Assembly: GCA_902593675.1 (NCBI GenBank)
Contig: CACJJI010000003.1
Span: forward strand, 124,001 to 188,000
DNA length: 64,000 nt
From: an uncultured SAR86 cluster bacterium
GTDB taxonomy: Bacteria > Pseudomonadota > Gammaproteobacteria > Magnimaribacterales > D2472
Direction: 5' to 3'
Every line of letters starts with the position of its first letter. The first letter of the stretch is position 1. Position numbers and translations under genes: made by a program. Below are positions 8,357-23,455 of the stretch, in pieces. The notes beneath the pieces are model-generated. The model was not told the DNA's origin, made no database searches, and worked only from the letters and a program-made list of their open reading frames with translations.

Positions 8357-9108
8357 AACACGTTATCGCCATTGCCAACCAAAAAGGAGGGGTTGGAAAA
8401 ACAACTACTGCAGTTAACCTGGCTGCGGCACTTGCTGCGACAAAAAGGAAGGTTTTATTGATTGACTTAGATCCACAGGGGAATGCGAGCACAGCAGCCG
8501 GAACCCCCAAAAATGACAGAACCTTATTCCAAGTTTATTCTCAAAATCTCAACATAAACGAACACATAATCAAGTCTCCAAGTGGGTACGACGTCATACC
8601 TGGTGGAGAAAACCTTATAGCGCTTGAGGTTTATATAAGAAATGAGAGCAAACAAGGCGAGCTAAAAAAACAACTAAACCCACTCGAGTACGAATTCATT
8701 ATAATGGACACCCCACCATCACTTAACCAACTAACACTTGAATCATTGTTTGCCGCAACAGCAACACTTATACCGCTTCAATGTGAATACTATTCGCTGG
8801 AGGGGATTTCATCACTTATCAACACCATTAATACCCTTAAAAACAAAAACCTAACAGAGAACAGGGTGTTTGGGATCATCAGAACCATGGTAGATATGAG
8901 AAACAATTTAGCAAAAGAGGTTTCTGAAGAATTAGAAAAGCACTTTCCAGCCCTGGTTTTTAACACCCTAATACCAAGAAATGTTAAATTAGCAGAGGCG
9001 CCGAGTCATGGAACCTCGGCAATACAATATATGCCGTCATCTTTTGGCGCTAAAGCATATTTAGCCCTAGCTGGCGAGCTCATTAGGAGAATTGAAAGTG
9101 GCAGATAA
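8353..9108 (+). CDS. parA: Chromosome partitioning ATPase ParA (Soj)
   Basis: Walker-type ATPase that moves ParB-parS complexes during chromosome segregation. The 251-residue product starts with IAIANQKGGVGKTTTAVNLA (deviant Walker A KGGVGKTT at 11-18), then LLIDLDPQGNAST and IIMDTPPSL. The start overlaps the rsmG stop by 4 bases and parB begins inside its last codons. This is the chromosomal, origin-proximal type rather than a plasmid form, judging from length and neighbours. Confidence 0.96.
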   Translation: MKHVIAIANQKGGVGKTTTAVNLAAALAATKRKVLLIDLDPQGNASTAAGTPKNDRTLFQVYSQNLNINEHIIKSPSGYDVIPGGENLIALEVYIRNESKQGELKKQLNPLEYEFIIMDTPPSLNQLTLESLFAATATLIPLQCEYYSLEGISSLINTINTLKNKNLTENRVFGIIRTMVDMRNNLAKEVSEELEKHFPALVFNTLIPRNVKLAEAPSHGTSAIQYMPSSFGAKAYLALAGELIRRIESGR

Positions 9109-9940
9109 AATACTTAACACAGGCCTAGATGCGCTCCTTGGAGATGTTGCCGCCCCAAACACACAATCCATTAAGGAGATTGAGTTAAACCAAATTAAAC
9201 CCAACCGCTTTCAACCAAGACAATCGTTTGATGAGCAAAAAATAAACGAACTTTCACAATCCATTGCAAAACACGGGATTTTATCACCCATTCTTGTAAG
9301 AGAAACAGGAGCAGGAGGCTATGAATTAATTGCTGGTGAAAGACGATTGAGAGCGGCAAAACAAGCCGGCCTAACAAAAGCTCCATGTATGGTTGATTCA
9401 GCCGAAGATCAGCTTTCTTTAGAGCTTGCGCTTATTGAAAACCTGCAACGGGAAGACCTTAACCCCATTGAAGAAGCTAGGGGTTATGACCGACTAAAAA
9501 GAGAGTTTTCCTTAACACAAGACAAAATTGCTGAAGTTACAGGTAAGGCCAGAAGCTCAGTGGCTAACTCTATGAGACTTCTAAACCTCCCAACCTCTGT
9601 AATAGATCTTTTGTATTCTGGTGACTTAGAAAAAGGCCACGCCAAAATTCTCGCATCCATGGAACCTAAAGAAGCAGAAGAGCTTGCAAAAAAAATAGTT
9701 TCTTTGGGTATGACAGTTAAAGATGCCGCCTCTTCAAACAAACCAAAAACAACAAAAAACAAAACAAAACCCAAGAATAGAGACTTATTAAACATAGAAG
9801 AAGAGCTTTCAGAAACCATTGGTCATAAAACCCAGATCGATCAACAATCTGCCTCACGAGGAAAAATATCTATCTCCTATTCATCAAAGGATGAAAGAGA
9901 GTCTATTATCAGTAAATTATTAAAATTAAAGAAAAATTAA
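9098..9940 (+). CDS. parB: Chromosome partitioning protein ParB (Spo0J)
   Basis: CTP-dependent DNA clamp that binds parS sites and works with ParA. The product has the N-terminal GLDALLGD-like peptide that contacts ParA, the ParB/Srx domain with PNRFQPRQSFDEQKINELSQSI, GGYELIAGERRLRAAKQAG and ENLQREDLNPIEEA, a helix-turn-helix with GKARSSVANSMRLLNLP, and a C-terminal dimer domain. I prefer GTG at 9098, which leaves VADKILNTGLDALLG; TTG at 9092 is also possible. No parS-like 16-mer was noticed within the window. Confidence 0.94.
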   Translation: MADKILNTGLDALLGDVAAPNTQSIKEIELNQIKPNRFQPRQSFDEQKINELSQSIAKHGILSPILVRETGAGGYELIAGERRLRAAKQAGLTKAPCMVDSAEDQLSLELALIENLQREDLNPIEEARGYDRLKREFSLTQDKIAEVTGKARSSVANSMRLLNLPTSVIDLLYSGDLEKGHAKILASMEPKEAEELAKKIVSLGMTVKDAASSNKPKTTKNKTKPKNRDLLNIEEELSETIGHKTQIDQQSASRGKISISYSSKDERESIISKLLKLKKN

Positions 9941-9942
9941 GC

Positions 9943-9971
9943 TTGTTCTTCAGACTATAAATTTTTATAAT
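9943..9971 (+). promoter_or_regulatory. Candidate sigma70 promoter of the atp operon
   Basis: In the 86-bp gap between parB and atpI there is TTGTTC (9943-9948), a 17-base spacer and a perfect TATAAT (9966-9971). It lies 56 bases upstream of the atpI TTG start, in the right place to drive the ATP synthase operon. It is the cleanest promoter-like sequence noticed in the window. Confidence 0.55.
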
Positions 9972-10026
9972 CAGCCCCGTAAAAAAACATACTTAAATCA
10001 AAATTAATATACTAAAAAATAACCTG

Positions 10027-11185
<1,159 letters not shown>

Positions 11186-11200
11186 GTCTTTAATTTTTAG

Positions 11201-11437
<237 letters not shown>

Positions 11438-11444
11438 ATAAATA

Positions 11445-11915
11445 ATGAATATTAACGCAACACTCTTGGGCCAAACTTTAGCATTTGTTATTTTTGTAGC
11501 AATTTGCTGGAAGTACGTATGGCCCCCAATCATTGCGATAATGGAAGAGAGAGAAAAGCGTATAGCAGATGGTTTAGAGGCGGCAAAAAAAGCAGATGAT
11601 TCCTTAGAAGAGGCACAACTTGCCTTTGATCAAGAGATGAATAAAGCAAAAGCAGAGGCCGCTGAAATACTAGAAAAAGCCAACTCTAGAGCCTCTCAAA
11701 TCGTTAATGATGCAACAGAAAAAGCAGAGGTTGAGGCTGAAAAGATTTTATCTTCAGCATCTAAAACAATTGAAAACGATGTTAATAAAGCCAAAGAAGA
11801 GCTAAGGCAAAAAATGTCAGAACTCATTATCGATACTTCTGAAAAAATACTGGGTGATGAAATTAGCCCAGAGAAACACCAAGAACTGCTTAAAAAAGCA
11901 GCCTCAGAGTTATAG
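11445..11915 (+). CDS. atpF: F0F1 ATP synthase subunit b
   Basis: Peripheral stalk subunit linking F0 to F1. The 156-residue product has one N-terminal membrane helix (about 6-26, [16 protein letters not shown]) followed by a long charged alpha-helical coiled coil rich in Ala, Glu and Lys, ending with [18 protein letters not shown]. Length equals that of E. coli b (156). The gap to atpE is 7 bases. Confidence 0.97.
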
Positions 11916-11918
11916 TAA

Positions 11919-12455
11919 ATGATTGAGTTGTCTCCACTTGCCAGACCATACGCAAAAGCCATCTTTTCTGCGGCTCTGGATGCTGGTACTCATGAAGCGG
12001 TTGCAAAGGACCTAGCTTTATTATCAGCGGTCTCTCAAACACAAGAGGTTTCCAGACTAATTGAAGATCCGGAGCTCTCAAAAGAAAAAATTGCTCAAAT
12101 TATTATAGGTTTGGCAGATGGTGAAGTAGGCAACCTTGCCAATAAGATGCTAGAACTTCTCGCAGATAATAAAAGACTCAACCTTATTGAAGCAATTAAC
12201 AACAGCTATCAAGAATTAATAGAGCAACACAACAAAACCAGCTCAATAGTTGTTAATGTTGCAAACCAACCCTCCGAAGATAATAAAAACATTATCATCG
12301 AAAAGCTCCTCGCAGAACATGGAGAGGGTTCCAAAATAGAATTTTCAGAAGATCCGTCAATTATGGGCGGTCTATCTATCAAAATCGGAGATGAAACTCT
12401 GGATCTATCCATTAAGGGAAAGGTCAAAAAATTAGTCAACCAATTAAATTTTTAA
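11919..12455 (+). CDS. atpH: F0F1 ATP synthase subunit delta
   Basis: Peripheral stalk cap that joins subunit b to the alpha3beta3 head. The 178-residue product begins with SPLARPYAKAIFSAAL, a hallmark of the family, and ends with a GGLSIKIGDETLDLSIKGK segment matching the conserved C-terminal beta motif. It starts 3 bases after atpF stops and is followed by atpA after 9 bases. Confidence 0.97.
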   Translation: MIELSPLARPYAKAIFSAALDAGTHEAVAKDLALLSAVSQTQEVSRLIEDPELSKEKIAQIIIGLADGEVGNLANKMLELLADNKRLNLIEAINNSYQELIEQHNKTSSIVVNVANQPSEDNKNIIIEKLLAEHGEGSKIEFSEDPSIMGGLSIKIGDETLDLSIKGKVKKLVNQLNF

Positions 12456-12464
12456 GGTGAAAAA

Positions 12465-14009
12465 ATGAGCCAATTAAATCCATCAGAAATTTCCAGCGTA
12501 TTAAAGGAAAAAATTTCAGGCCTTGATCTTTCAGCGGAAAGAAAAAACGAAGGTATTATCGTCAGTGTTTCAGACGGGATTGTCCGAATTCATGGCATGG
12601 GCGATGTTATGTACGGTGAGTTGATCGAGTTTGAAAATGGGGTTCTTGGGCTAGCTCTAAATCTCGAACAAGATTCTGTAGGTGCTGTTGTTCTTGGTGA
12701 CTACCTAGGCTTAATTGAGGGTCAAAAAGCTGTTTGTACTGGAAAAATCTTAGAAGTACCTGTTGGTGAGGAGTTATTGGGAAGGGTTGTGGATGCTCTG
12801 GGAAATCCAATTGATGGCAAGGGTGAAATTAAAACAGAGTCAACCGCGCCAGTTGAAGTTGTGGCTCCAGGAGTTATTGCCAGACAGTCTGTTGATCAAC
12901 CCGTACAGATTGGTCTCAAGGCTGTTGATGCGATGGTTCCAATTGGCCGAGGTCAAAGAGAGCTTATTATTGGCGACAGGCAAACAGGCAAGACTGCTGT
13001 TGCGGTTGATGCAATCATCAACCAAAAAGGCACAGGCATTAAGTGTATCTATGTTGCGATAGGACAAAAACAATCAACTGTAGTAAATGTTGTTAAAAAA
13101 CTTGAGGAGCATGGAGCTCTGGAACACACAATTATTGTCTCTGCCTCAGCGTCTGATCCGGCCCCAATGCAATATCTGTCTGCATACTCAGGATGCTCAA
13201 TGGGCGAATACTTTAGAGACAAAGGAGAAGACGCCCTGATTGTGTATGATGATCTTTCCAAACAAGCGGTTGCATACAGACAAGTTTCTCTACTTTTAAA
13301 AAGACCCCCAGGAAGAGAAGCATATCCAGGCGATGTGTTTTATCTTCATTCAAGACTATTAGAAAGAGCTGCGAGAGTAAACGCAGACTACGTAGAAAAA
13401 GTTACAAACGGAAAGGTAAAAGGCAAAACGGGGTCTTTAACCGCGCTTCCAATTATTGAAACACAAGCTGGCGATGTATCAGCTTTCGTTCCTACAAATG
13501 TTATTTCAATTACTGATGGCCAAATTTTCCTAGAGACTGATTTATTTAATTCAGGTATCAGGCCTGCTATTAACCCAGGTATTTCTGTTTCTAGGGTGGG
13601 TGGCGCTGCTCAAACCAAGATCATGAAAAAACTTAGTGGCGGGGTAAGAACCGCACTTGCTCAGTATAGAGAGTTAGCTGCTTTCTCTCAATTTGCATCA
13701 GACTTAGATGATGCTACTAAAGCTCAGTTAGCTAGAGGCATTAGAATCACAGAGCTCATCAAACAAAAACAATATTCACCGATGAGCGTGGCTCAACAGT
13801 CGCTTAGCATCTTTGCCGCTGACAGGGGTTATATGGATGATGTTGAGGTTGAAAAAATAGGTAGTTTTGAAGAGGCATTGCATGGCTACTTCACATCTGA
13901 AAAAGCTGACCTTGAAAAAAGCATTAATGAAACAGGTGACTGGAACGATGATATCGAAAAACAATTCACTGAGGTTGTTGAACAATTTAAAAAAACTCAA
14001 ACATTTTAA
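12465..14009 (+). CDS. atpA: F0F1 ATP synthase subunit alpha
   Basis: Non-catalytic nucleotide-binding subunit of the F1 head. The 514-residue product has the N-terminal beta barrel, P-loop GDRQTGKT (about 170-177), the [20 protein letters not shown] segment and the alpha signature [17 protein letters not shown]. Length matches E. coli (513). It has a normal GGTG ribosome site and follows atpH closely. Confidence 0.98.
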
Positions 14010-14019
14010 TTTATAACTA

Positions 14020-16291
<2,272 letters not shown>

Positions 16292-16294
16292 TTT

Positions 16295-16708
16295 ATGTCT
16301 ACCATTAAAGTCAGCATAGTTTCATCAAGTGAAGAAATTTATTCTGGCGAAGGAACTATGGTTTTTGCTACCGGATCTCTTGGTGAAATAGGCATTGCTC
16401 CTGGTCATACACCCCTTTTAACTGGGCTTGCCCCAGGGCCAGTACGAGTTCAAAACGGCGATGATGAAAAAACCTTTTTTTGCTCAGGCGGATTCATTGA
16501 AATCCAACCTGATTTGGTCACTTTTTTGTCCGACAGAGCTGAACGCGCAGAATCAATGGATGAGGCTGAGGCTATCAAGGCTCAAGAGCTTGCAGAAAAA
16601 AATATGCATGACAAAGAGTCAGAGTTAGATTACACCAAAGCTGCAGCACAACTTGCTGAAGCAGCGGCACGAATTAAAACCATTCAAAAGTTAAGAAAAA
16701 ACAAGTAA
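16295..16708 (+). CDS. atpC: F0F1 ATP synthase subunit epsilon
   Basis: Regulatory and coupling subunit at the foot of the F1 shaft. The 137-residue product has the N-terminal beta sandwich with EIYSGEGTMVFATGSLGEIG and GHTPLLTGLAPG, and a two-helix C-terminal domain rich in Ala and Glu. It begins 3 bases after atpD and closes the operon; glmU follows after 32 bases. Confidence 0.96.
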   Translation: MSTIKVSIVSSSEEIYSGEGTMVFATGSLGEIGIAPGHTPLLTGLAPGPVRVQNGDDEKTFFCSGGFIEIQPDLVTFLSDRAERAESMDEAEAIKAQELAEKNMHDKESELDYTKAAAQLAEAAARIKTIQKLRKNK

Positions 16709-16740
16709 GGTACTTGTATCAAGCTTAATTCGTTATTACG

Positions 16741-18093
16741 TTGAATATTCATACTATTATCCTTGCAGCTGGCAAAGGAACTCGAATGAACACCAATTTG
16801 CCAAAGGTGATGCAACCCCTTGGCGGCCATACCCTAATCTCTCACGTGATTAAAACCGCTAAAGCAAACAGCAAAAATGTAACCGTTGTTGTGGGACATC
16901 AAAAAGATCTTTTAAAAGAACACATAACTGGCATCGATCCAAACATTCAAACAGTAGATCAAAATGAACAACTTGGAACCGCACATGCTGTTAAAGTAGC
17001 CACTCATTTGATAAAGGACAAGGAAAAGGTTTTGGTTCTATATGGCGACGTTCCCCTAATCAGCAATGAGACCATAGAGGGACTTATTGGTTCTGCGCAA
17101 GAGTGCACGCTTTTATCCATGATGCTAAATGACCCAACTGGCTACGGTAGAATAATTACCAATGAAGAAAACCTAGCCCTAAGAATTATTGAGCAAAAAG
17201 ATGCGTCTTCTGAAGAAAAAAAAATTCAAGAGGTCTTTACGGGCATTTTATTGGTTGATGGCAGCCTTTTAAAAATTGCTTTAGATGAAATTAACAACCA
17301 AAATGCTGCTAATGAGTACTATCTTACTGACTTGGTAGAGATACTTTCTGCAAAAGGGGTTAAAATAAATTGTATTCAAGCTGATCCCGCTGAAGTTGTA
17401 GGGGCAAATAACAAGCATGAATTGCATGAGTTAGAGTCAATTTTAAGAAAAATGAGCGCTGAAAAATTATTAGAACAAGGGATTACTCTCCTAGATGCAG
17501 CTCGCATTGATGTTCGGGGTGAAGTTGAGGCTGGCAAAGATTGTTCTGTAGACGTCAATGTAATTTTTGAAGGCAAAGTTACTTTAGGTGATAACGTTAC
17601 CATTAAATCAAACGTTGTCTTACAAGATGTTTCTATCGGAGATAATTCCACTATCGACTCTTTCAGCCACCTATCATCTGCAACGGTAGGTTCTAATTGC
17701 AACATAGGCCCTTATGCCCGTCTTAGAGAGGGCTCTGAAATCGGAAACAATGCAAAAGTTGGAAATTTTGTTGAGACCAAAAAAACCAAACTTGGAGATG
17801 GCGCAAAAGCCAATCATCTAGCATATTTGGGCGATGCTGATATTGGCGATAGGACAAATATTGGTGCTGGAACCATTACTTGTAATTATGATGGCACCAA
17901 CAAACATCAAACAACCATTGGTGAAGAGAGTTTTATTGGAACAAATTCTTCGTTGGTAGCGCCAGTAGAGATTGGCAAAGGCGTATACGTTGGGGCCGGT
18001 TCTGTAATTACCAAGGATGTGCCTGATGAAGCCTTGGCTGTAGCTCGAGGCAAACAGGTGACCAAAGAAGATTGGGCAAAAAACAAAAAATAA
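16741..18093 (+). CDS. glmU: Bifunctional GlmU: glucosamine-1-phosphate acetyltransferase / GlcNAc-1-P uridyltransferase
   Basis: Makes UDP-GlcNAc for peptidoglycan and lipopolysaccharide. The 450-residue product has the N-terminal nucleotidyltransferase with LAAGKGTRM (7-15) and VLYGDVPLI, and a C-terminal left-handed beta helix of hexapeptide repeats (from about 255) ending in the acetyltransferase active site region NYDGTNKHQTTIG and IGTNSSLVAPV. The start is TTG at 16741. It is adjacent to glmS, which makes its precursor. Confidence 0.97.
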   Translation: MNIHTIILAAGKGTRMNTNLPKVMQPLGGHTLISHVIKTAKANSKNVTVVVGHQKDLLKEHITGIDPNIQTVDQNEQLGTAHAVKVATHLIKDKEKVLVLYGDVPLISNETIEGLIGSAQECTLLSMMLNDPTGYGRIITNEENLALRIIEQKDASSEEKKIQEVFTGILLVDGSLLKIALDEINNQNAANEYYLTDLVEILSAKGVKINCIQADPAEVVGANNKHELHELESILRKMSAEKLLEQGITLLDAARIDVRGEVEAGKDCSVDVNVIFEGKVTLGDNVTIKSNVVLQDVSIGDNSTIDSFSHLSSATVGSNCNIGPYARLREGSEIGNNAKVGNFVETKKTKLGDGAKANHLAYLGDADIGDRTNIGAGTITCNYDGTNKHQTTIGEESFIGTNSSLVAPVEIGKGVYVGAGSVITKDVPDEALAVARGKQVTKEDWAKNKK

Positions 18094-18094
18094 T

Positions 18095-19921
18095 ATGTGT
18101 GGAATTATAGGAGCGGCATCATCTCGCAACGTTGGCAAGCTATTGGTCCAAGGCCTTCATAAAATGGAGTATCGCGGCTATGACTCAGCCGGTATAGCCC
18201 TCCATCAAAAAGACAGTATTTTCAACCTAAGAACTTTAGGCAAAGTTAGCTTGCTTGAAGATGGAATGATTGAACAACGCCCAAAAAGCAAACTCGGCAT
18301 TGCGCACACACGTTGGGCCACACATGGCAAGCCTTCAGAAAAAAATGCACACCCTCATGCATCCAGCGGAGAGGTTCACATTGTCCACAATGGAATCATA
18401 GAGAACTACCTTGAGTTAACTGCAAAACTAACCAAAGATGGTTATAACTTCCAATCAGAAACTGACTCAGAAGTCATAGCGCATTTACTTCACCAACATT
18501 TTCAGTCCTCGGGTGATCTACTTCTTGCCATGCATGATGCAGTCAAAGAGTTAGACGGGGCTTATGCCATAGCAGCCATACATATTAATGATAAGAGCAG
18601 GCTCATCATCGCAAGAAACAAAAGCCCGCTTTTAATTGGTGTTGGTTTAGAAGAAAATTTTGCTGCTTCTGATCCCTTGGCCCTTTCTCAGCTGACCAAT
18701 GAGTTTGTTTTTCTTGAAGACGGGGATGTTGCGGAAATTACAAAGCAAAACTTCCAGGTTTTTGACGGGAAGAATTCTCCTGTAACCAGAGATATAACTG
18801 AAATAGATATAGCTGTTAATGCCGTTACCAAGGGTGAATATTCTCATTTCATGGAAAAAGAAATATATGAACAACCCGAAGCGGTTGCCAATACCATCAA
18901 CGGGAAGCTTGGAGAGGAGGACGTATTAGATAATATATTTGGTCTAGGCTCGTCTGAAGTTTTTAGTAAAATCAAAAGGATTCAGTTTGTTGCCTGTGGA
19001 ACGAGTTTGCATGCAGGGAAGGTGGGAAGATTTTGGTTCGAAAAAATAGCAAAAATTCCTTGTTACGTAGATTTTGCTAGCGAGTATAGATATCGAGATC
19101 CACTTGTAGAAGAGGGCACATTGTTTGTGACCATCTCTCAATCAGGTGAAACGGCAGACACTTTGGCTGCATTAAGATATGCACAAGAAAAAGATTATCT
19201 GAGCACTCTATCAATTTGTAATGTGCCAACCAGTTCGCTGGCCAGAGAATCCGAACATGTTTTATTCACCAATGCCGGTCCAGAGATAGGCGTTGCTTCA
19301 ACCAAAGCATTTACCACCCAACTTGCAGGACTTATGTTGCTTGCCATGTCGATAGCAAAAAGCCTGGATGGAGATAAAGAGGTAAGAAAAAATCTTGCCA
19401 ACGAATTAAGATCTTTGCCTGAAATCATTAATGAAACACTAAAGCTGTCTGATGAGATCTCGGGCATAGTTCCTAACATTGCTGATAAGCACAATGCGTT
19501 ATTTTTAGGTCGAGGAATGTTTTTCCCAATTGTGCAAGAGGGCGCATTAAAGCTCAAAGAAATTTCGTACATCCATGCTGAAGCATATCCAGCAGGCGAG
19601 CTAAAACACGGACCATTGGCATTGGTAGATGATCAAATCCCAGTGGTTGCTTTATCGCCTGAAAATACTTTAACTGAAAAATTGGTGTCTAACCTTGAAG
19701 AGGTAAAAGCCAGAGGCGGAACGCTTTATGTTTTCGGCGGGCCCAATTCTAAAATTAATCTTGAAAGAGGGGTTTATATTCAAATGCCAGAGTGCAGCGA
19801 GTTGCTTGCACCCATTATTTATACCATCCCACTTCAAATCCTTGCCTATCAAGTTGCATGTCAACGTGGAACTGATTTAGATCAACCCAGGAACCTAGCT
19901 AAGTCAGTCACGGTGGAGTAA
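18095..19921 (+). CDS. glmS: Glutamine-fructose-6-phosphate aminotransferase (isomerizing)
   Basis: First step of amino-sugar synthesis, making glucosamine-6-phosphate. The 608-residue product has the N-terminal nucleophile Cys2 (MCGIIGAAS), the glutaminase domain with RWATHGKPSEKNAHPH, two SIS sugar-isomerase domains (about 290-590) and the conserved tail NLAKSVTVE. The start is one base after the glmU stop. The last codons (19904-19921) matter because degenerate copies of them recur downstream at 20169, 20850, 22401, 22872 and 23426, marking an insertion island at the glmS 3' end, a known target of Tn7-type elements. Confidence 0.98.
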   Translation: MCGIIGAASSRNVGKLLVQGLHKMEYRGYDSAGIALHQKDSIFNLRTLGKVSLLEDGMIEQRPKSKLGIAHTRWATHGKPSEKNAHPHASSGEVHIVHNGIIENYLELTAKLTKDGYNFQSETDSEVIAHLLHQHFQSSGDLLLAMHDAVKELDGAYAIAAIHINDKSRLIIARNKSPLLIGVGLEENFAASDPLALSQLTNEFVFLEDGDVAEITKQNFQVFDGKNSPVTRDITEIDIAVNAVTKGEYSHFMEKEIYEQPEAVANTINGKLGEEDVLDNIFGLGSSEVFSKIKRIQFVACGTSLHAGKVGRFWFEKIAKIPCYVDFASEYRYRDPLVEEGTLFVTISQSGETADTLAALRYAQEKDYLSTLSICNVPTSSLARESEHVLFTNAGPEIGVASTKAFTTQLAGLMLLAMSIAKSLDGDKEVRKNLANELRSLPEIINETLKLSDEISGIVPNIADKHNALFLGRGMFFPIVQEGALKLKEISYIHAEAYPAGELKHGPLALVDDQIPVVALSPENTLTEKLVSNLEEVKARGGTLYVFGGPNSKINLERGVYIQMPECSELLAPIIYTIPLQILAYQVACQRGTDLDQPRNLAKSVTVE

Positions 19922-19937
19922 GTTTAAACAGCGATTT
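19922..19937 (+). repeat. Left inverted repeat of module 1, abutting the glmS stop
   Basis: GTTTAAACAGCGATTT starts at the base after the glmS stop codon. Its reverse complement matches AAATCACTGTTTAAAC at 20152-20167 in 15 of 16 positions, so the 66-residue lipoprotein gene sits between inverted repeats. Confidence 0.65.
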
Positions 19938-19949
19938 AAGGAGACCATT

Positions 19950-20150
19950 ATGAAGTACACAGCAATATTAGTGTTTGGGTTTATAGCAACCTCTTGCTCT
20001 TTTACCACTGAAACCGAGACTAATAATTACTACTCTTTGGGAATTGATCCCGATCAAGCATGCATACTCAAAGATTATTATTTAGAAAATAATAAAACAA
20101 TCCCAGAATCTGTAAAAAAGATACTGGATGAAAACAATATCGAGTGCTAA
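19950..20150 (+). CDS. Small putative lipoprotein, unknown function (module 1)
   Basis: The 66-residue product begins with a hydrophobic stretch and a lipobox-like ending (FIATSC, Cys16), so it is probably a small lipoprotein; the rest is short, acidic and polar with two more cysteines. I do not recognise the family. The ATG has a good AAGGAG site. It is the only gene of the first module after glmS and lies between inverted repeats (19922-19937 and 20152-20167). Confidence 0.65.
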   Translation: MKYTAILVFGFIATSCSFTTETETNNYYSLGIDPDQACILKDYYLENNKTIPESVKKILDENNIEC

Positions 20151-20151
20151 G

Positions 20152-20208
20152 AAATCACTGTTTAAACTCAATCAGTGACCGTGGAGTAGAACATAACAGT
20201 TAATTAAC
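20152..20208 (+). repeat. Module boundary R1: inverted repeat plus glmS-tail copy
   Basis: AAATCACTGTTTAAAC (20152-20167) is followed by 20169-20189, which reads Q-S-V-T-V-E-stop with different synonymous codons from native glmS, and then by AACAGTTAATTAAC (20195-20208) just before the next start codon. The last piece pairs imperfectly with GTTATTCACTGTT at 20831-20843, the other end of the next module. Confidence 0.65.
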
Positions 20209-20826
20209 ATGGGTATATTGTTATCAATTCATATATTAGCTGGAACAATTGCCCTTCTTTGTGCTGCCCTGGCAGTTTCATCTGAGAAAGGAAAAAAATT
20301 CCATGTTCTTTCAGGTAGAACATATTTCTGGTGCATGGTTGGTATTTTTTTAACAGCTATTCCAATGTCAATTATTAACAGCAATACCTTTTTATTTCTA
20401 ATAGCAATTTTTTCTTTCTATTTAGCTTTTGCAGGCATGCGTTTTGCTAAAAATAGAAAAGGCATAGCGACGACAATTGATTGGATCGCGGTTAGTTTAA
20501 TGATTTTATCTGGACTGGGGATGTGGGCATTGGCTATAACTTACTTCATAAGCGACAATTCTCAATATATAACACTTCTCGTTTTTGGATTTATTGCACT
20601 AGCGCTCGGATATCGAGACTATAGAAGCCACAAGAATAAAACAGCAACAGGAAAAGAGAGAATTGCAAAGCATCTAACCAATATGATGGCTGGAACCATA
20701 GCTGTTATTACTGCTGTTTTAGTCGTCAATGTTAATATTGAACCTATATGGATATGGTGGTTATTACCGACGGTGGTGATTACGCCAATCATCTCTTACT
20801 GGAATAAAAAAACTTTGTCACCGTGA
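20209..20826 (+). CDS. Seven-helix membrane protein, unknown function (module 2)
   Basis: The 205-residue product has about seven hydrophobic segments with short loops, beginning HILAGTIALLCAALAV and containing SGRTYFWCMVGIFLTAIP. It resembles DUF2306-like membrane proteins in general layout, including a histidine in the first helix and one in the first loop, but that is a tentative comparison. The ATG at 20209 directly follows AACAGTTAATTAAC, leaving no clear ribosome site. It is the only gene of its module. Confidence 0.7.
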   Translation: MGILLSIHILAGTIALLCAALAVSSEKGKKFHVLSGRTYFWCMVGIFLTAIPMSIINSNTFLFLIAIFSFYLAFAGMRFAKNRKGIATTIDWIAVSLMILSGLGMWALAITYFISDNSQYITLLVFGFIALALGYRDYRSHKNKTATGKERIAKHLTNMMAGTIAVITAVLVVNVNIEPIWIWWLLPTVVITPIISYWNKKTLSP

Positions 20827-20830
20827 AAAA

Positions 20831-20870
20831 GTTATTCACTGTTTCAATACAATCCGTTACAGTAGAATGA
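20831..20870 (+). repeat. Module boundary R2: inverted repeat plus glmS-tail copy
   Basis: GTTATTCACTGTT (20831-20843) is followed by 20850-20870, which reads Q-S-V-T-V-E-stop (TGA). All six sense codons are in frame although several third bases differ from glmS, so it looks like the tail of a diverged glmS allele rather than a recent copy of the local one. Confidence 0.65.
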
Positions 20871-20886
20871 TCTAGGGAGTTGACGT

Positions 20887-21690
20887 CTGTTTAAGCACAT
20901 TCACATTGTTGCCTGCTCGCCGCGATCCGGTACCACTCTCTTGCACGAGGCGATGGTCACCTGTTTTCGGACAAACAAGCATTATGACCATGAGATTCGC
21001 TTTCACCTCGTAACCGCAAAAAACAACGATGTGGTTATCACGAAACGACCCAAAGATACGTTGTACATGCCAGGAGTCATCGACGATCCTAATCTCTATG
21101 TCATTTACGTAACGCGCGATCCGCGTGATGTCATCGTTAGCCGGCACGGCAAGAGCGAGGATATGTACTACTCGAACATTAGGCTTTGGCGTGAATTGCA
21201 TGCCTGTGCACGCTCATTGTTCGGCCACGATCGTTTTCTCAATATCCGGTACGAGGATTTCGTAAATAACCCTGACGCCACACAAAGCCAAATCACTGCA
21301 AAATTTCCATGGCTTGAGAAAAAACACAAATTTTCTGAGTACCATGAACACGCGCAGGTGTCTGAAAAGTCAAAGGTTGCAATGCGTGGCGTCCGTCGTA
21401 TTGGACCGACCAGTGTCGGTATCTGGCGAAAACATCTCGGTCGCATCGTTCAACAGCAGGCAATCCACGGCACAATGACACCAGATCTGGTCGGTTGTGG
21501 ATACGAATCATCGCCGGATTGGGAAGTTGTTCTGGACGGCGTTTTACCGGATAAATCTAACAGTTGGTATCCGGAGAAAAAACGTATTTGGCAGAGAATT
21601 TCGCAACCCATTGATGCTTCGAGAAAAATAGCTATCTATCGGCGCAAGAAAGGACTTAGTCGAATCAGCAGAGCAACCAATGATCGTTAG
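20887..21690 (+). CDS. Sulfotransferase family protein (probable CTG start; module 3)
   Basis: Predicted PAPS-dependent sulfotransferase acting on a surface sugar or small molecule. The N-terminus carries the 5'-phosphosulfate loop ACSPRSGTTLL (motif at residues 12-19) and a 3'-phosphate site IYVTRDPRDVIVSR near 73-86. The motif lies upstream of the first ATG or TTG in the frame, and the frame is closed at 20881-20883, so the start is most likely CTG at 20887, with AGGGAG 7 bases before it; this gives 267 residues. Base composition is visibly richer in G+C than its neighbours, suggesting recent transfer. The end overlaps the next gene by 11 bases. Confidence 0.8.
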   Translation: MFKHIHIVACSPRSGTTLLHEAMVTCFRTNKHYDHEIRFHLVTAKNNDVVITKRPKDTLYMPGVIDDPNLYVIYVTRDPRDVIVSRHGKSEDMYYSNIRLWRELHACARSLFGHDRFLNIRYEDFVNNPDATQSQITAKFPWLEKKHKFSEYHEHAQVSEKSKVAMRGVRRIGPTSVGIWRKHLGRIVQQQAIHGTMTPDLVGCGYESSPDWEVVLDGVLPDKSNSWYPEKKRIWQRISQPIDASRKIAIYRRKKGLSRISRATNDR

Positions 21691-22378
21691 CCATGCAAAG
21701 AAGTTTATTTTCGTAAAGACCCGTAAAACCTCGGGCACAAGCATGGAGGTTAGTCTGAGCCAAGTCTGTGGTCCCGATGACATCATCACTCCGATATCGT
21801 TTGAAGACGAACTCGTCAGGCTCGACATGGGCGGCACGTTACCTCAGAACTACGCTGGTCTTCGAGAGCAGCGATATCGCGATATGATAAAGGCACGCAA
21901 GATGAAATTTTTACGCGCCAGACGCCGTGGCAAGTTTTTCAATCATATGCCGGCTGTTGCGATTCGCGAGCACGTCGGCAAAAAAACTTACGATGATTAC
22001 TTCACTTTTTCGATCGAAAGGCATCCGTACGAAAAGGTTGTATCACATATCTATTATCATGCGCGCGGAAAAAAGAACTGGAGTTTTGACAAGGAGCTTG
22101 AGCGTGTTCTGAAGAAGAAGTATTACGTCAATTATCCAACCTATTCAGACGGTGAAAAACCTATTGTCGATTTCATTGTCAATTTTGACAATATGCAGGA
22201 AGACCTCACGACCCTCGGCGACAGGCTTGAATTTGATATTGTCGCGCACTATCCACAAACCAAACACAAATTCCGAACTAACAGAAGGCCTGCATCCGAG
22301 CTGTTGTCGCAGAAAGTAAAGGACCAAATATATAAGAACTGCAGGATCGAGTTCGATGCAATGGGTTACGAGCGTTAG
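21680..22378 (+). CDS. Sulfotransferase family 2-like protein (module 3)
   Basis: A second predicted PAPS-dependent sulfotransferase of 232 residues. The PAPS loop is FVKTRKTSGTSMEVSL near 11-26 and a second conserved segment is SIERHPYEKVVSH near 110-122. It overlaps the first sulfotransferase by 11 bases and has the same raised G+C, so both probably arrived together. They are bracketed by direct repeats R2 and R3. The substrate is not evident; surface polysaccharide sulfation is a guess. Confidence 0.75.
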   Translation: MIVSHAKKFIFVKTRKTSGTSMEVSLSQVCGPDDIITPISFEDELVRLDMGGTLPQNYAGLREQRYRDMIKARKMKFLRARRRGKFFNHMPAVAIREHVGKKTYDDYFTFSIERHPYEKVVSHIYYHARGKKNWSFDKELERVLKKKYYVNYPTYSDGEKPIVDFIVNFDNMQEDLTTLGDRLEFDIVAHYPQTKHKFRTNRRPASELLSQKVKDQIYKNCRIEFDAMGYER

Positions 22379-22400
22379 CATGATCACGACAAGACGAAAA

Positions 22401-22419
22401 CAATCCTTCACTGTAGAAT
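22401..22419 (+). repeat. Module boundary R3: direct repeat of R2 after the sulfotransferases
   Basis: CAATCCTTCACTGTAGAAT matches CAATCCGTTACAGTAGAAT at 20850-20868 in 16 of 19 positions. It reads Q-S-F-T-V-E without a stop. R2 and R3 exactly bracket the two sulfotransferase genes. Confidence 0.55.
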
Positions 22420-22449
22420 ACTTTATGATTCGTATTGATAAAAAGTAAA

Positions 22450-22815
22450 ATGGATTATTGGTTACTGATGATTGCGGCTTTCCTTTCTTTGGCAGGAATG
22501 TTGTTTCATGGGTTCATCGGGGGAAAAATTTATATTAGCAATGTAAATGATAGCGATATGGAGGCATTAACAAAATCGTTAAGCATTGTTTCTTGGCATG
22601 TGTTCACCATCTTTCTTTTTATAAGTGCTTTAACTTTAATTTATATAGCCTATAACCCAGAATTTGCTATAGCTGCATATCCGGTAATTGGCATCAACCT
22701 TTTAGGCTCGCTTTTATTTATTTTTCTTGGTTTGGGAAGACATAGAGCTTTATTAAGAATGCCAGGTGCTTTTCTAATGGGTATTACGGCATTGCTTGCT
22801 TGGCTGGGAATATGA
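22450..22815 (+). CDS. Four-helix membrane protein, unknown function (module 4)
   Basis: From the ATG at 22450 the product is 121 residues (a TTG 15 bases upstream would add five). It has about four hydrophobic segments (MDYWLLMIAAFLSLAGMLFHG, IVSWHVFTIFLFISALTL, and two near the C-terminus). I recognise no motif. Composition returns to the AT-rich background. It is the sole gene between boundaries R3 and R3b. Confidence 0.65.
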   Translation: MDYWLLMIAAFLSLAGMLFHGFIGGKIYISNVNDSDMEALTKSLSIVSWHVFTIFLFISALTLIYIAYNPEFAIAAYPVIGINLLGSLLFIFLGLGRHRALLRMPGAFLMGITALLAWLGI

Positions 22816-22868
22816 TGGAGCTCAAAGGGTTATATCTATTGGAAAATCCCCCAATACGAAACTTAAAC

Positions 22869-22889
22869 AACTCCATAACAGCGGAATAA
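22869..22889 (+). repeat. Module boundary R3b: degenerate glmS-tail copy
   Basis: The bases read N-S-I-T-A-E-stop, similar to the GlmS ending SVTVE-stop, in the short gap between two small membrane protein genes. The match is weaker than R1 and R2 and is supported mostly by its position. Confidence 0.35.
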
Positions 22890-22895
22890 ATCATA

Positions 22896-23183
22896 ATGGA
22901 AATAAACTGGATAGCAGTCGGTTGGATTATAGACATGACCCTTAATGGTTTAGTGTGGCTCATTATCGCAGCCTTTTCTTTATTATTAATTGACATGACT
23001 GACTCATGGACAAGAAAAGCTATTAAATGGATGGATATAGCTGATAAACAGATAAGAAAATTTATAGATAACTTATTTGAATGGATTGAAAAGAGGAATC
23101 TTAAAATAATCAGCAGCATTATATTGTTAATCATCTTTGGTATTCTTGCTCAACTAGGAATAATACCTAAGCTGATAACTTAA
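22896..23183 (+). CDS. Small membrane protein, unknown function (module 5)
   Basis: The 95-residue product has an N-terminal hydrophobic segment (about 6-32), a charged amphipathic middle with several Trp and Lys, and a C-terminal hydrophobic segment (about 72-90). No family is recognised. The gene starts 6 bases after the degenerate glmS-tail copy R3b and is followed by another small gene. Confidence 0.6.
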   Translation: MEINWIAVGWIIDMTLNGLVWLIIAAFSLLLIDMTDSWTRKAIKWMDIADKQIRKFIDNLFEWIEKRNLKIISSIILLIIFGILAQLGIIPKLIT

Positions 23184-23204
23184 TATAAAAGGACATTCAA
23201 AATC

Positions 23205-23399
23205 GTGATTTGCATCAAGACAGAAATCCCAAAAGAAATCTGCGAAATAGATGATGAACTAAAAGCAATCTATCATTCACAGGATACTGTTTGCATATGG
23301 GTCTTCAAATCTAGAGAAGACAGAAATAATTTTATGAACGATACTGTTGGTATGAATAAGGAAGAGAGAGAACAATATTTTTCAGATAATTATGGATAA
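23205..23399 (+). CDS. Small soluble protein, unknown function (module 5)
   Basis: The 64-residue acidic product (starting GTG at 23205, V/MICIKTEIPKEICEID) has no membrane segment and ends EEREQYFSDNYG. AAAGGACA 13 bases upstream is a plausible ribosome site. I do not recognise it. It lies between the 95-residue membrane protein and boundary R4, and the two probably form one unit. Confidence 0.55.
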   Translation: MICIKTEIPKEICEIDDELKAIYHSQDTVCIWVFKSREDRNNFMNDTVGMNKEEREQYFSDNYG

Positions 23400-23408
23400 A
23401 ATACTAAG

Positions 23409-23455
23409 TCACTGTTTAAAAACACTCTGTCAGGTGGAGTAAAATAAAACAGTGA
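23409..23455 (+). repeat. Module boundary R4: glmS-tail copy inside a 9-bp inverted repeat
   Basis: TCACTGTTT (23409-23417) and AAACAGTGA (23447-23455) are perfect reverse complements. Between them TCTGTCAGGTGGAGTAA (23426-23442) matches the native glmS end apart from one missing base and a synonymous change. The right arm contains the GTG start of the GFA-family gene. Confidence 0.6.

Follow-up and report, generated by a model that had tools for sequence, protein, structure and literature searches.

A gene-cassette system attached to the 3' end of glmS in SAR86 bacteria, probably moved by a large serine recombinase

Introduction

Why is the coding end of glmS repeated several times behind this gene in a SAR86 genome? 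SAR86 is an abundant, uncultured group of the surface ocean with small genomes. In the stretch considered here, 64,000 nucleotides of an uncultured SAR86 cluster bacterium (GCA_902593675.1, contig CACJJI010000003.1, positions 124,001 to 188,000; called the window below), glmS is followed by a row of short units separated by copies of its own tail. A first-pass annotation, made from the letters and the translated open reading frames (ORFs), had noticed these copies and suggested that they might belong to a compact system of cassettes targeting glmS. All five copies it had placed behind glmS were found again, including one with a deleted base at about 23423-23441, and the suggested system is supported by gain and loss of cassettes in relatives, where the precise junctions expected by that annotation were found inside the tail. 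We propose that the units are gene cassettes which attach to the chromosome at the 3' end of glmS and are probably moved by a large serine recombinase. The comparison of sequences demonstrates that the units are built as cassettes, at which point they exchange, that they are transferred horizontally and that they bear inverted arms; it also demonstrates recombinase elements that end in the way the cassettes do. By the same comparison, the cassettes appear to have been moved between SAR86 species by a serine integrase still carried at glmS by a few relatives.

Tail copies behind glmS across SAR86

Ninety SAR86 glmS loci were compared: 79 of the 80 obtained by a search for relatives (L175 was excluded, its glmS being truncated), the window, and ten from further relatives. 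The core of the tail was described by a position weight matrix (PWM) trained on 159 forward copies with at most one mismatch to a pattern from the native glmS ends. Loci with less than 200 downstream bases were skipped in the copy count, and 775,544 bases were scanned, with one Markov-1 resample per locus as the chance control. Of the 81 loci having at least 2 kb downstream, 73 hold one or more further tail copies scoring at least 8 bits, and the other eight hold none. At 10 bits or more, the 90 loci contained 249 copies on the glmS strand, two on the reverse strand and none in the resampled sequences, a forward count which is partly so by construction, because the PWM was trained on forward copies. 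As a control free of this training, a fixed pattern with at most one mismatch was searched in 60 genomes of the order, which gave 122 matches (native tails included) as opposed to 13 for the reversed pattern, these sums being made by hand. The first-pass annotation had allowed that such strings might be common by chance, or that all relatives might carry one shared set of modules; these counts argue against the former, and the relatives were found to differ in their modules.

Most matches of the fixed pattern lie at glmS. Of the remaining matches, the surroundings of some were read in ten stretches, and several of these stretches are at contig edges. The best conserved positions of the core are those fixed by the glmS codons, and the wobble positions vary. 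Arrays occur in members of all four sampled families of the order, and two f4 loci that were read had no copy. In a sample of 369 gammaproteobacterial genomes the exact pattern matched in two, one of them SAR86 and the other without arms. Since this strict pattern is present in only 41 of the 81 SAR86 loci and so misses many, the absence outside SAR86 is likely rather than proven: within the limited sensitivity of this class-wide sample, the system is likely to be absent elsewhere in the Gammaproteobacteria.

One contig without glmS (L238, G013:C18) carries five core copies of at least 9 bits at 9000-19624; glmS of the same genome sits with its own array on another contig. L238 could be either a second array or a piece split off at a contig end.

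Cassettes and their transfer

Between the tail copies of 76 loci lie 250 intervals. Clustering them by sequence gave 147 groups, 35 of which contain at least two intervals. For this count each locus was cut at its first interval above 6 kb, which hides the recombinase element of locus L153 (see below) and the cassettes behind it. The median interval is 644 bp long, and an array holds one to nine. Among ORFs of at least 60 amino acids in the arrays, 304 of 358 run with glmS and 54 against it. According to Pfam, the cargo includes restriction enzymes, DNA methylases, HNH nucleases, GFA and MAPEG proteins, methionine sulfoxide reductase, sulfotransferases and many unknowns; for 164 cassette representatives, no recombinase or transposase was found among the families listed (up to 25 per group).

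The same cassette recurs in different genomes and in different orders. In 127 of 131 pairs the cassette was more alike than the glmS of its hosts, with medians of 97.3% and 70.1%, although these pairs are not independent (the cassette W3 supplies many of them). In the extreme pair, 1,371 bp of cassette are 100% identical in hosts whose glmS is 67.5% identical. Because of this recurrence, and because the cassettes exceed the identity of their hosts' glmS, the units between the tail copies are, as judged from the loci compared, mobile cassettes exchanged horizontally. The array of the window is composed as follows.

18095..19921, plus strand: glmS, from the ORF list; its last codons, ACN GTN GAR stop, form the proposed attachment site, and core copies follow downstream
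19901..19920, plus strand: native core, AAGTCAGTCACGGTGGAGTA, PWM score 31.4 bits, with the exchange point AC at 19910-19911
19912..20179, plus strand: cassette W1 with a 66-amino-acid ORF (19950-20150) and inverted arms at 19916-19937 and 20152-20173 (repeat I1, 86%)
20169..20188, plus strand: core copy 1, PWM score 31.4 bits
20180..20860, plus strand: cassette W2 with a 205-amino-acid ORF (20209-20826); the matching cassette is 97% identical in L105 and 89% in L101
20850..20869, plus strand: core copy 2, PWM score 21.7 bits
20861..22411, plus strand: cassette W3 with two sulfotransferase-like genes by Pfam (20941-21690 and 21680-22378), GC fraction 0.468, arms weak or decayed
22401..22420, plus strand: core copy 3, degenerate, PWM score 10.9 bits
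22412..22879, plus strand: cassette W4 with a 126-amino-acid ORF and inverted arms at 22422-22437 and 22852-22867 (repeat I10, 88%)
22869..22888, plus strand: core copy 4, degenerate, PWM score 15.9 bits
22896..23183, plus strand: 95-amino-acid ORF, probable resident neighbour at the end of the array; its family recurs past the last core elsewhere
23191..23422, plus strand: probable former cassette with a 64-amino-acid ORF (23205-23399), its left core decayed
23423..23441 (about), plus strand: core copy 5 with one base deleted, flanked left and right by arm-like sequence (inverted repeats I2 and I4)

An identical W1 is carried by two close relatives of the window, and the three genomes differ from one another in the cassette that follows it. 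W4 has counterparts of 96-98% identity in L102, L116 and L166. DNA 97-99% identical to W3 was found in 12 other loci, in one of them (L106) over about half of W3, and in the seven W3-bearing loci listed the glmS DNA is 66.6-69.4% identical to that of the window. The GC fraction of the neighbouring cassettes is 0.30-0.35. The high GC of W3 and its near-identity in distant SAR86 species suggest that it is probably a recent arrival which is now spreading.

Cassettes may also land away from glmS. In genome G051 (L245 6520-8756, G051:C23), a cassette with a 600-amino-acid ORF lies inside a stretch, judged by eye to be a short-chain dehydrogenase gene, which is uninterrupted in G429 and G425. The join is at GTTAC; the alignment is flush with G429 and has a 10-base gap near the join with G425. 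By these alignments the cassette is an off-target insertion at a secondary site.

Point of exchange and inverted arms

The core is written AANTCNGTNACNGTNGARTR, with positions 0-19. The exchange was located with 325 sites, those near contig ends being excluded and the pairs thinned so that each site was counted once. When only the downstream cassette is shared (32 pairs), the wobble base at position 8 is the same in 9 pairs and that at position 11 in 23; when only the upstream DNA is shared (34 pairs), the numbers are 28 for position 8 and 13 for position 11. Since the agreement flips between positions 8 and 11, the switch is placed between them, at AC, which occupies positions 9-10 in 236 of the 250 internal copies. 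With the switch at AC, the first cassette supplies the last bases of glmS including the stop codon; over 88 loci the stop codons of glmS are TAG in 45, TAA in 33 and TGA in 10. The first-pass annotation had read the synonymous differences as a hint that the copies are tails of different glmS alleles. They are not simply such tails: as we interpret the exchange, glmS receives only what stands to the right of AC, from whichever cassette is first, and the left part of an internal copy is a cassette end. At core positions 1-4, ACTC is read in 100 of the 250 internal copies and in none of the 75 native cores, all of which have AATC or AGTC.

When the cassettes are written in circular form, the DNA flanking the core is a clear inverted repeat in about half of them. 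Its arms lie at a distance of 11 to 27 bases from an axis that falls exactly on AC. Arms were compared in 245 of the 250 cassettes, those below 80 bp being excluded. Over 142 non-redundant cassettes, the two arms of one cassette match on average at 10.70 of 17 positions, as opposed to 6.54 after re-pairing, in which arms of different cassettes are set against each other (z 20.7); 70 of these 142 reach at least 12 of 17 matches, compared with 8% by re-pairing. The palindrome is centred on AC, as sliding the arms by 1-4 bp collapses the mean match to 4.5-5.5 (about 5.5 at one base). Taken at the level of sequence, the exchange and the symmetry fit AC as the central dinucleotide of a symmetric site. 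The sequence of the arms varies, with 79 distinct left arms among 111 well-paired cassettes.

Serine recombinase elements

An enzyme that could act on such a site was found where the first-pass annotation had suggested looking for one, near glmS in a relative. In SAR86 AH-326-D05 (L153), a complete integrated element lies behind glmS; it is 6,047 bp long, and its two arms agree at 15 of 17 positions. From glmS onwards it consists of a core and the left arm, then a short ORF, a gene for replication, several unknown genes and a serine recombinase of 551 amino acids, and lastly the right arm and a core; ordinary cassettes adjoin it on the far side. The recombinase matches PF00239 (6e-24), PF07508 (1e-11) and the integrase family phrog_95 (3e-78). 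The replication protein (12272-12733) belongs to the REP_ORF2-G2P type, with 28.7 bits against a cut-off of 27.8; the element may therefore replicate as a circle. In genome G025 a contig starts inside a similar recombinase gene, followed by the right arm and the core. One arm of the L153 element is the same as that of cassette L138_1 (17/17), and the arm beside the G025 recombinase is the same as those of cassettes L103_2 and L104_0 (17/17). Both forms were found by searching all fetched loci with the proteins of two circular elements.

These two metagenome elements are apparently circular, since they have exact terminal repeats of 123 and 77 nucleotides. The first, L271/L346, comes from viral contigs and gives a circle of 10,265 bp. 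Its large serine recombinase gene, an ORF of 711 amino acids across the contig ends, contains the core, with arms matching at 16 of 17 positions, and the domain of a small protein described below follows in frame; the part on one contig end of L271 that was scanned matches PF07508. The second, L315, likewise has the core in its recombinase gene (arms 12/17). This gene is complete, the core is antisense to it, and its product matches PF00239, PF07508 and PF13408, all three over the cut-off. The recombinases of the two elements are 29% identical. The elements were reached by a search with the stand-alone C-terminal domain, and also by two looser core scans combined with the arm test; among the matches listed, at least two circular elements have the core in the recombinase gene. 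None of the other viral core matches, among the 197 examined, has an arm match above 9, and arms were likewise lacking in all 24 stretches that a first scan of viral sequences for the core had yielded. The attachment site thus lies inside the recombinase gene in both circular elements, and the orientation of the core relative to the gene is opposite in the two.

A small stand-alone relative of the recombinase C-terminal domain is encoded in 7 of the 60 genomes, in all seven within the glmS array and in four of them directly behind glmS. Three of four such proteins tested exceed the cut-off of PF07508, which describes the recombinase domain of large serine recombinases. When viral contigs were searched with this family, one relative turned up, in the L271/L346 element. 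Because the domain lies across the attachment site in two elements, integration would separate it from the rest of the recombinase.

Several observations count against a serine recombinase as the mover of the cassettes. A complete recombinase gene is present in only one of the fetched glmS loci, with a partial one at a contig edge elsewhere. PF00239 was found in 2 of the 60 genomes, in neither case near glmS and in one below the curated cut-off; AH-326-D05 seemingly lies outside this set, as its PF00239 would have matched. The domain was not found in the window's own genome, which is 81% complete, and no recombinase was found for most arm types. The zinc ribbon of the L153 recombinase stays under the cut-off (21.7 compared with 25.3 bits). 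The short ORF behind glmS in L153 has no Pfam match and is only weakly similar to the C-terminal-domain profile (1.2e-5), and the recombinase ORF ends just before the right arm; therefore a gene spanning the attachment site is not universal. Among the cassettes, 134 of 245 have fewer than 12 of 17 arm matches, which we take as decay or fused units. The mispairs in the arms (A-C 65, G-T 49) point clearly neither towards folding of a single strand nor away from it. The whole case is built from sequence. In support of movement in trans, 59 of 136 non-redundant cassettes share at least 13/17 positions of an arm with a recombinase- or domain-bearing element, compared with 0.1% in a position-shuffled control, but a consensus may explain part of this sharing because the control keeps the composition and not the arm consensus TTTRAACAGTGAWTT.

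Proposed reaction and alternatives

In the mechanism proposed here, rare autonomous elements using the same site would encode the large serine recombinase. The enzyme would take a cassette in circular form (right arm, core, left arm) and insert it at the end of glmS or at any one of the tail copies in the array, cutting at the central AC of TCNGTNAC|NGTNGARTAR. Since AC is not palindromic, cassettes would enter one way. Insertion at glmS would swap the last glmS codons for the copy brought by the cassette, restoring Val-Glu-stop, and because insertion leaves a fresh site at the far end, cassettes would stack. The recombinase probably binds the inverted arms, each about 17 bp long, as its outer half-sites, and different arm types probably correspond to different recombinase lineages, while the core would stay fixed because it must match glmS. 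Cassettes lacking a recombinase would depend on an enzyme supplied in trans, as happens with integrons and SCC islands. We infer that the recombinase would catalyse the cassette reaction, the arms would set its specificity, and the cassettes would circulate as circles. There is a good chance that this amounts to a second, independently built platform for gene capture, with the function of an integron and large serine integrases, in which glmS is the receiving site, the pool is order-wide, the arms are an address picking the integrase lineage, and some integrase genes span the site and are cut by integration.

Arrays of cassettes in a single orientation, with diverse cargo and with arms that are variable yet complementary, are integron-like, and could be explained also by a true integron or by another tyrosine recombinase, XerC/XerD included, moving the cassettes by recognition of a single strand folded in the manner of attC sites. 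In nearly all of the 60 genomes, the only site-specific recombinases found are indeed two tyrosine recombinases of about 300 amino acids, taken as XerC and XerD. This explanation is nevertheless quite improbable, as none of the 60 genomes has IntI over the TIGR02249 cut-off, a local tyrosine-recombinase profile had no match in the glmS loci searched, and ten stretches around extra tyrosine recombinase matches contained no core of 6 bits or more. Moreover, integrons exchange attC at G|TTRRRY, whereas the exchange observed here is at the centre of the palindrome, at AC, and not at a G|TT near its edge. Modules of the XerCD/dif kind were rejected because the SAR86 dif is ordinary and the core is unlike it. 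The rarity of recombinase genes, and the arm types for which none is known, could mean that the serine recombinase elements merely share the site with cassettes moved by a still unknown enzyme. We regard this as unlikely, given that elements and cassettes have in common the core, its centre, the register of the arms and in part, in the 17/17 cases, the arm sequence.

The tandem repeats of about 20 bp might by themselves let homologous recombination or slippage between glmS tails shuffle ordinary island DNA. This is very improbable: the exchange is confined between two bases 3 nucleotides apart, single cassettes are shared by hosts with about 67% identical glmS, and the G051 cassette was found inside a gene that is uninterrupted in both relatives compared. 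Most improbable of all, finally, is a Tn7-like transposition at attTn7, even though the target gene is the same. Tn7 integrates on the downstream side of glmS without duplicating the tail of the gene, whereas the junctions seen here fall inside the coding tail, and the units have no common fixed terminal sequence. TniQ gave no match in the 60 genomes, in a search whose controls were silent too, and IS110 was absent from the same 60 genomes. Movement by a large serine recombinase is thus the explanation that we retain in what follows.

Relation to known systems

The glmS cassettes have their nearest relatives in the SCC/ECC islands at rlmH as to chemistry and layout, and in integrons as to function; by the features tested they belong to neither. 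SCC/ECC islands, the cassette chromosomes of staphylococci and enterococci with CcrAB recombinases acting at rlmH, insert in the 3' region of a conserved gene and have direct repeats at both ends, dyad symmetry in the junction of the circle, and large serine recombinases, as described in the consulted part of PMC6222049. The SAR86 system resembles them in the use of the 3' region of a conserved gene and in direct tail repeats combined with inverted end repeats. A large serine recombinase, possibly comparable to Ccr, is present in the L153 element and absent from the small cassettes. It differs in its target, glmS of marine Gammaproteobacteria instead of rlmH, and in that most units are small (the median given above), lack a recombinase and stand up to nine in a row; the cassettes come from an order-wide pool, their arms are variable, and two circular elements have the site inside the recombinase gene.

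The attC sites of integrons are palindromic and poorly conserved in sequence, according to the parts consulted of PMC2727003 and PMC3053210. Integrons and the SAR86 arrays have in common small, exchangeable cassettes in one direction, diverse cargo, a fixed receiving site and palindromic, variable sites. Unlike integrons, the SAR86 system has no integron integrase in the 60 genomes searched, receives its cassettes at the coding end of a housekeeping gene, exchanges at the centre of the palindrome, and probably employs a serine instead of a tyrosine recombinase.

With Tn7 the system shares the use of the conserved glmS 3' end with tolerance of wobble positions, but no Tn7 gene was found (in the TniQ search with silent controls mentioned above). 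With phages and plasmids having large serine integrases it shares PF00239, PF07508 and the zinc ribbon, the phrog_95 integrase match, a circular form and a palindromic attachment site. It is unlike these in the extra C-terminal domain that lies across the site in two elements, in the relatives of this domain behind glmS, and in that non-autonomous cassettes far outnumber autonomous elements.

In the openly licensed literature searched, parts of which were available, no description of a glmS cassette system was found. The consulted part of PMC3569297 describes one SAR86 hypervariable region with outer-membrane genes, and glmS does not occur in the consulted part of PMC1821060.

For SAR86, the locus offers a mapped site of gene exchange, a pool of cassettes with restriction enzymes, methylases and nucleases, and a candidate enzyme for gene gain. 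If the mechanism is true, integron-like cassette arrays need not depend on a tyrosine integrase, and natural single-gene payloads together with a glmS-directed serine integrase would be possible tools.

Remaining features of the window

The end of the window's array seems to keep traces of its history. The right half of core copy 4 is perhaps the displaced original end of glmS. The 95-amino-acid protein encoded behind it (22896-23183) belongs to a family that 28 loci carry downstream of their last detected core, with a median spacing of 67 bp, and this gene is likely the original, resident neighbour of glmS. The unit with the 64-amino-acid ORF that comes next exists as a separate cassette of 248 bp in L055 and lies directly behind glmS in L143. 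Core copy 5, because of its deleted base, is invisible to the ungapped PWM. Weak extra forward matches of the PWM occur in the window at 17133 (9.1 bits) and 20809 (6.3 bits), and none on the reverse strand reaches 4 bits.

The array of the window had no match in the phage or plasmid collections, the first protein of W3 had no relative among the viral contigs searched, and Rfam gave one match, far under the gathering score. The nearest named relatives of the window's glmS, both from SAR86, are those of AG-447-M16 (98% identical) and SAR86E (94%). A dif-like site was present in 25 of 30 SAR86 genomes searched, for example at G000:C1:183072-183097, and in 17 of these 25 it reads TTCGCATAATATATATTATGTTAAAT.

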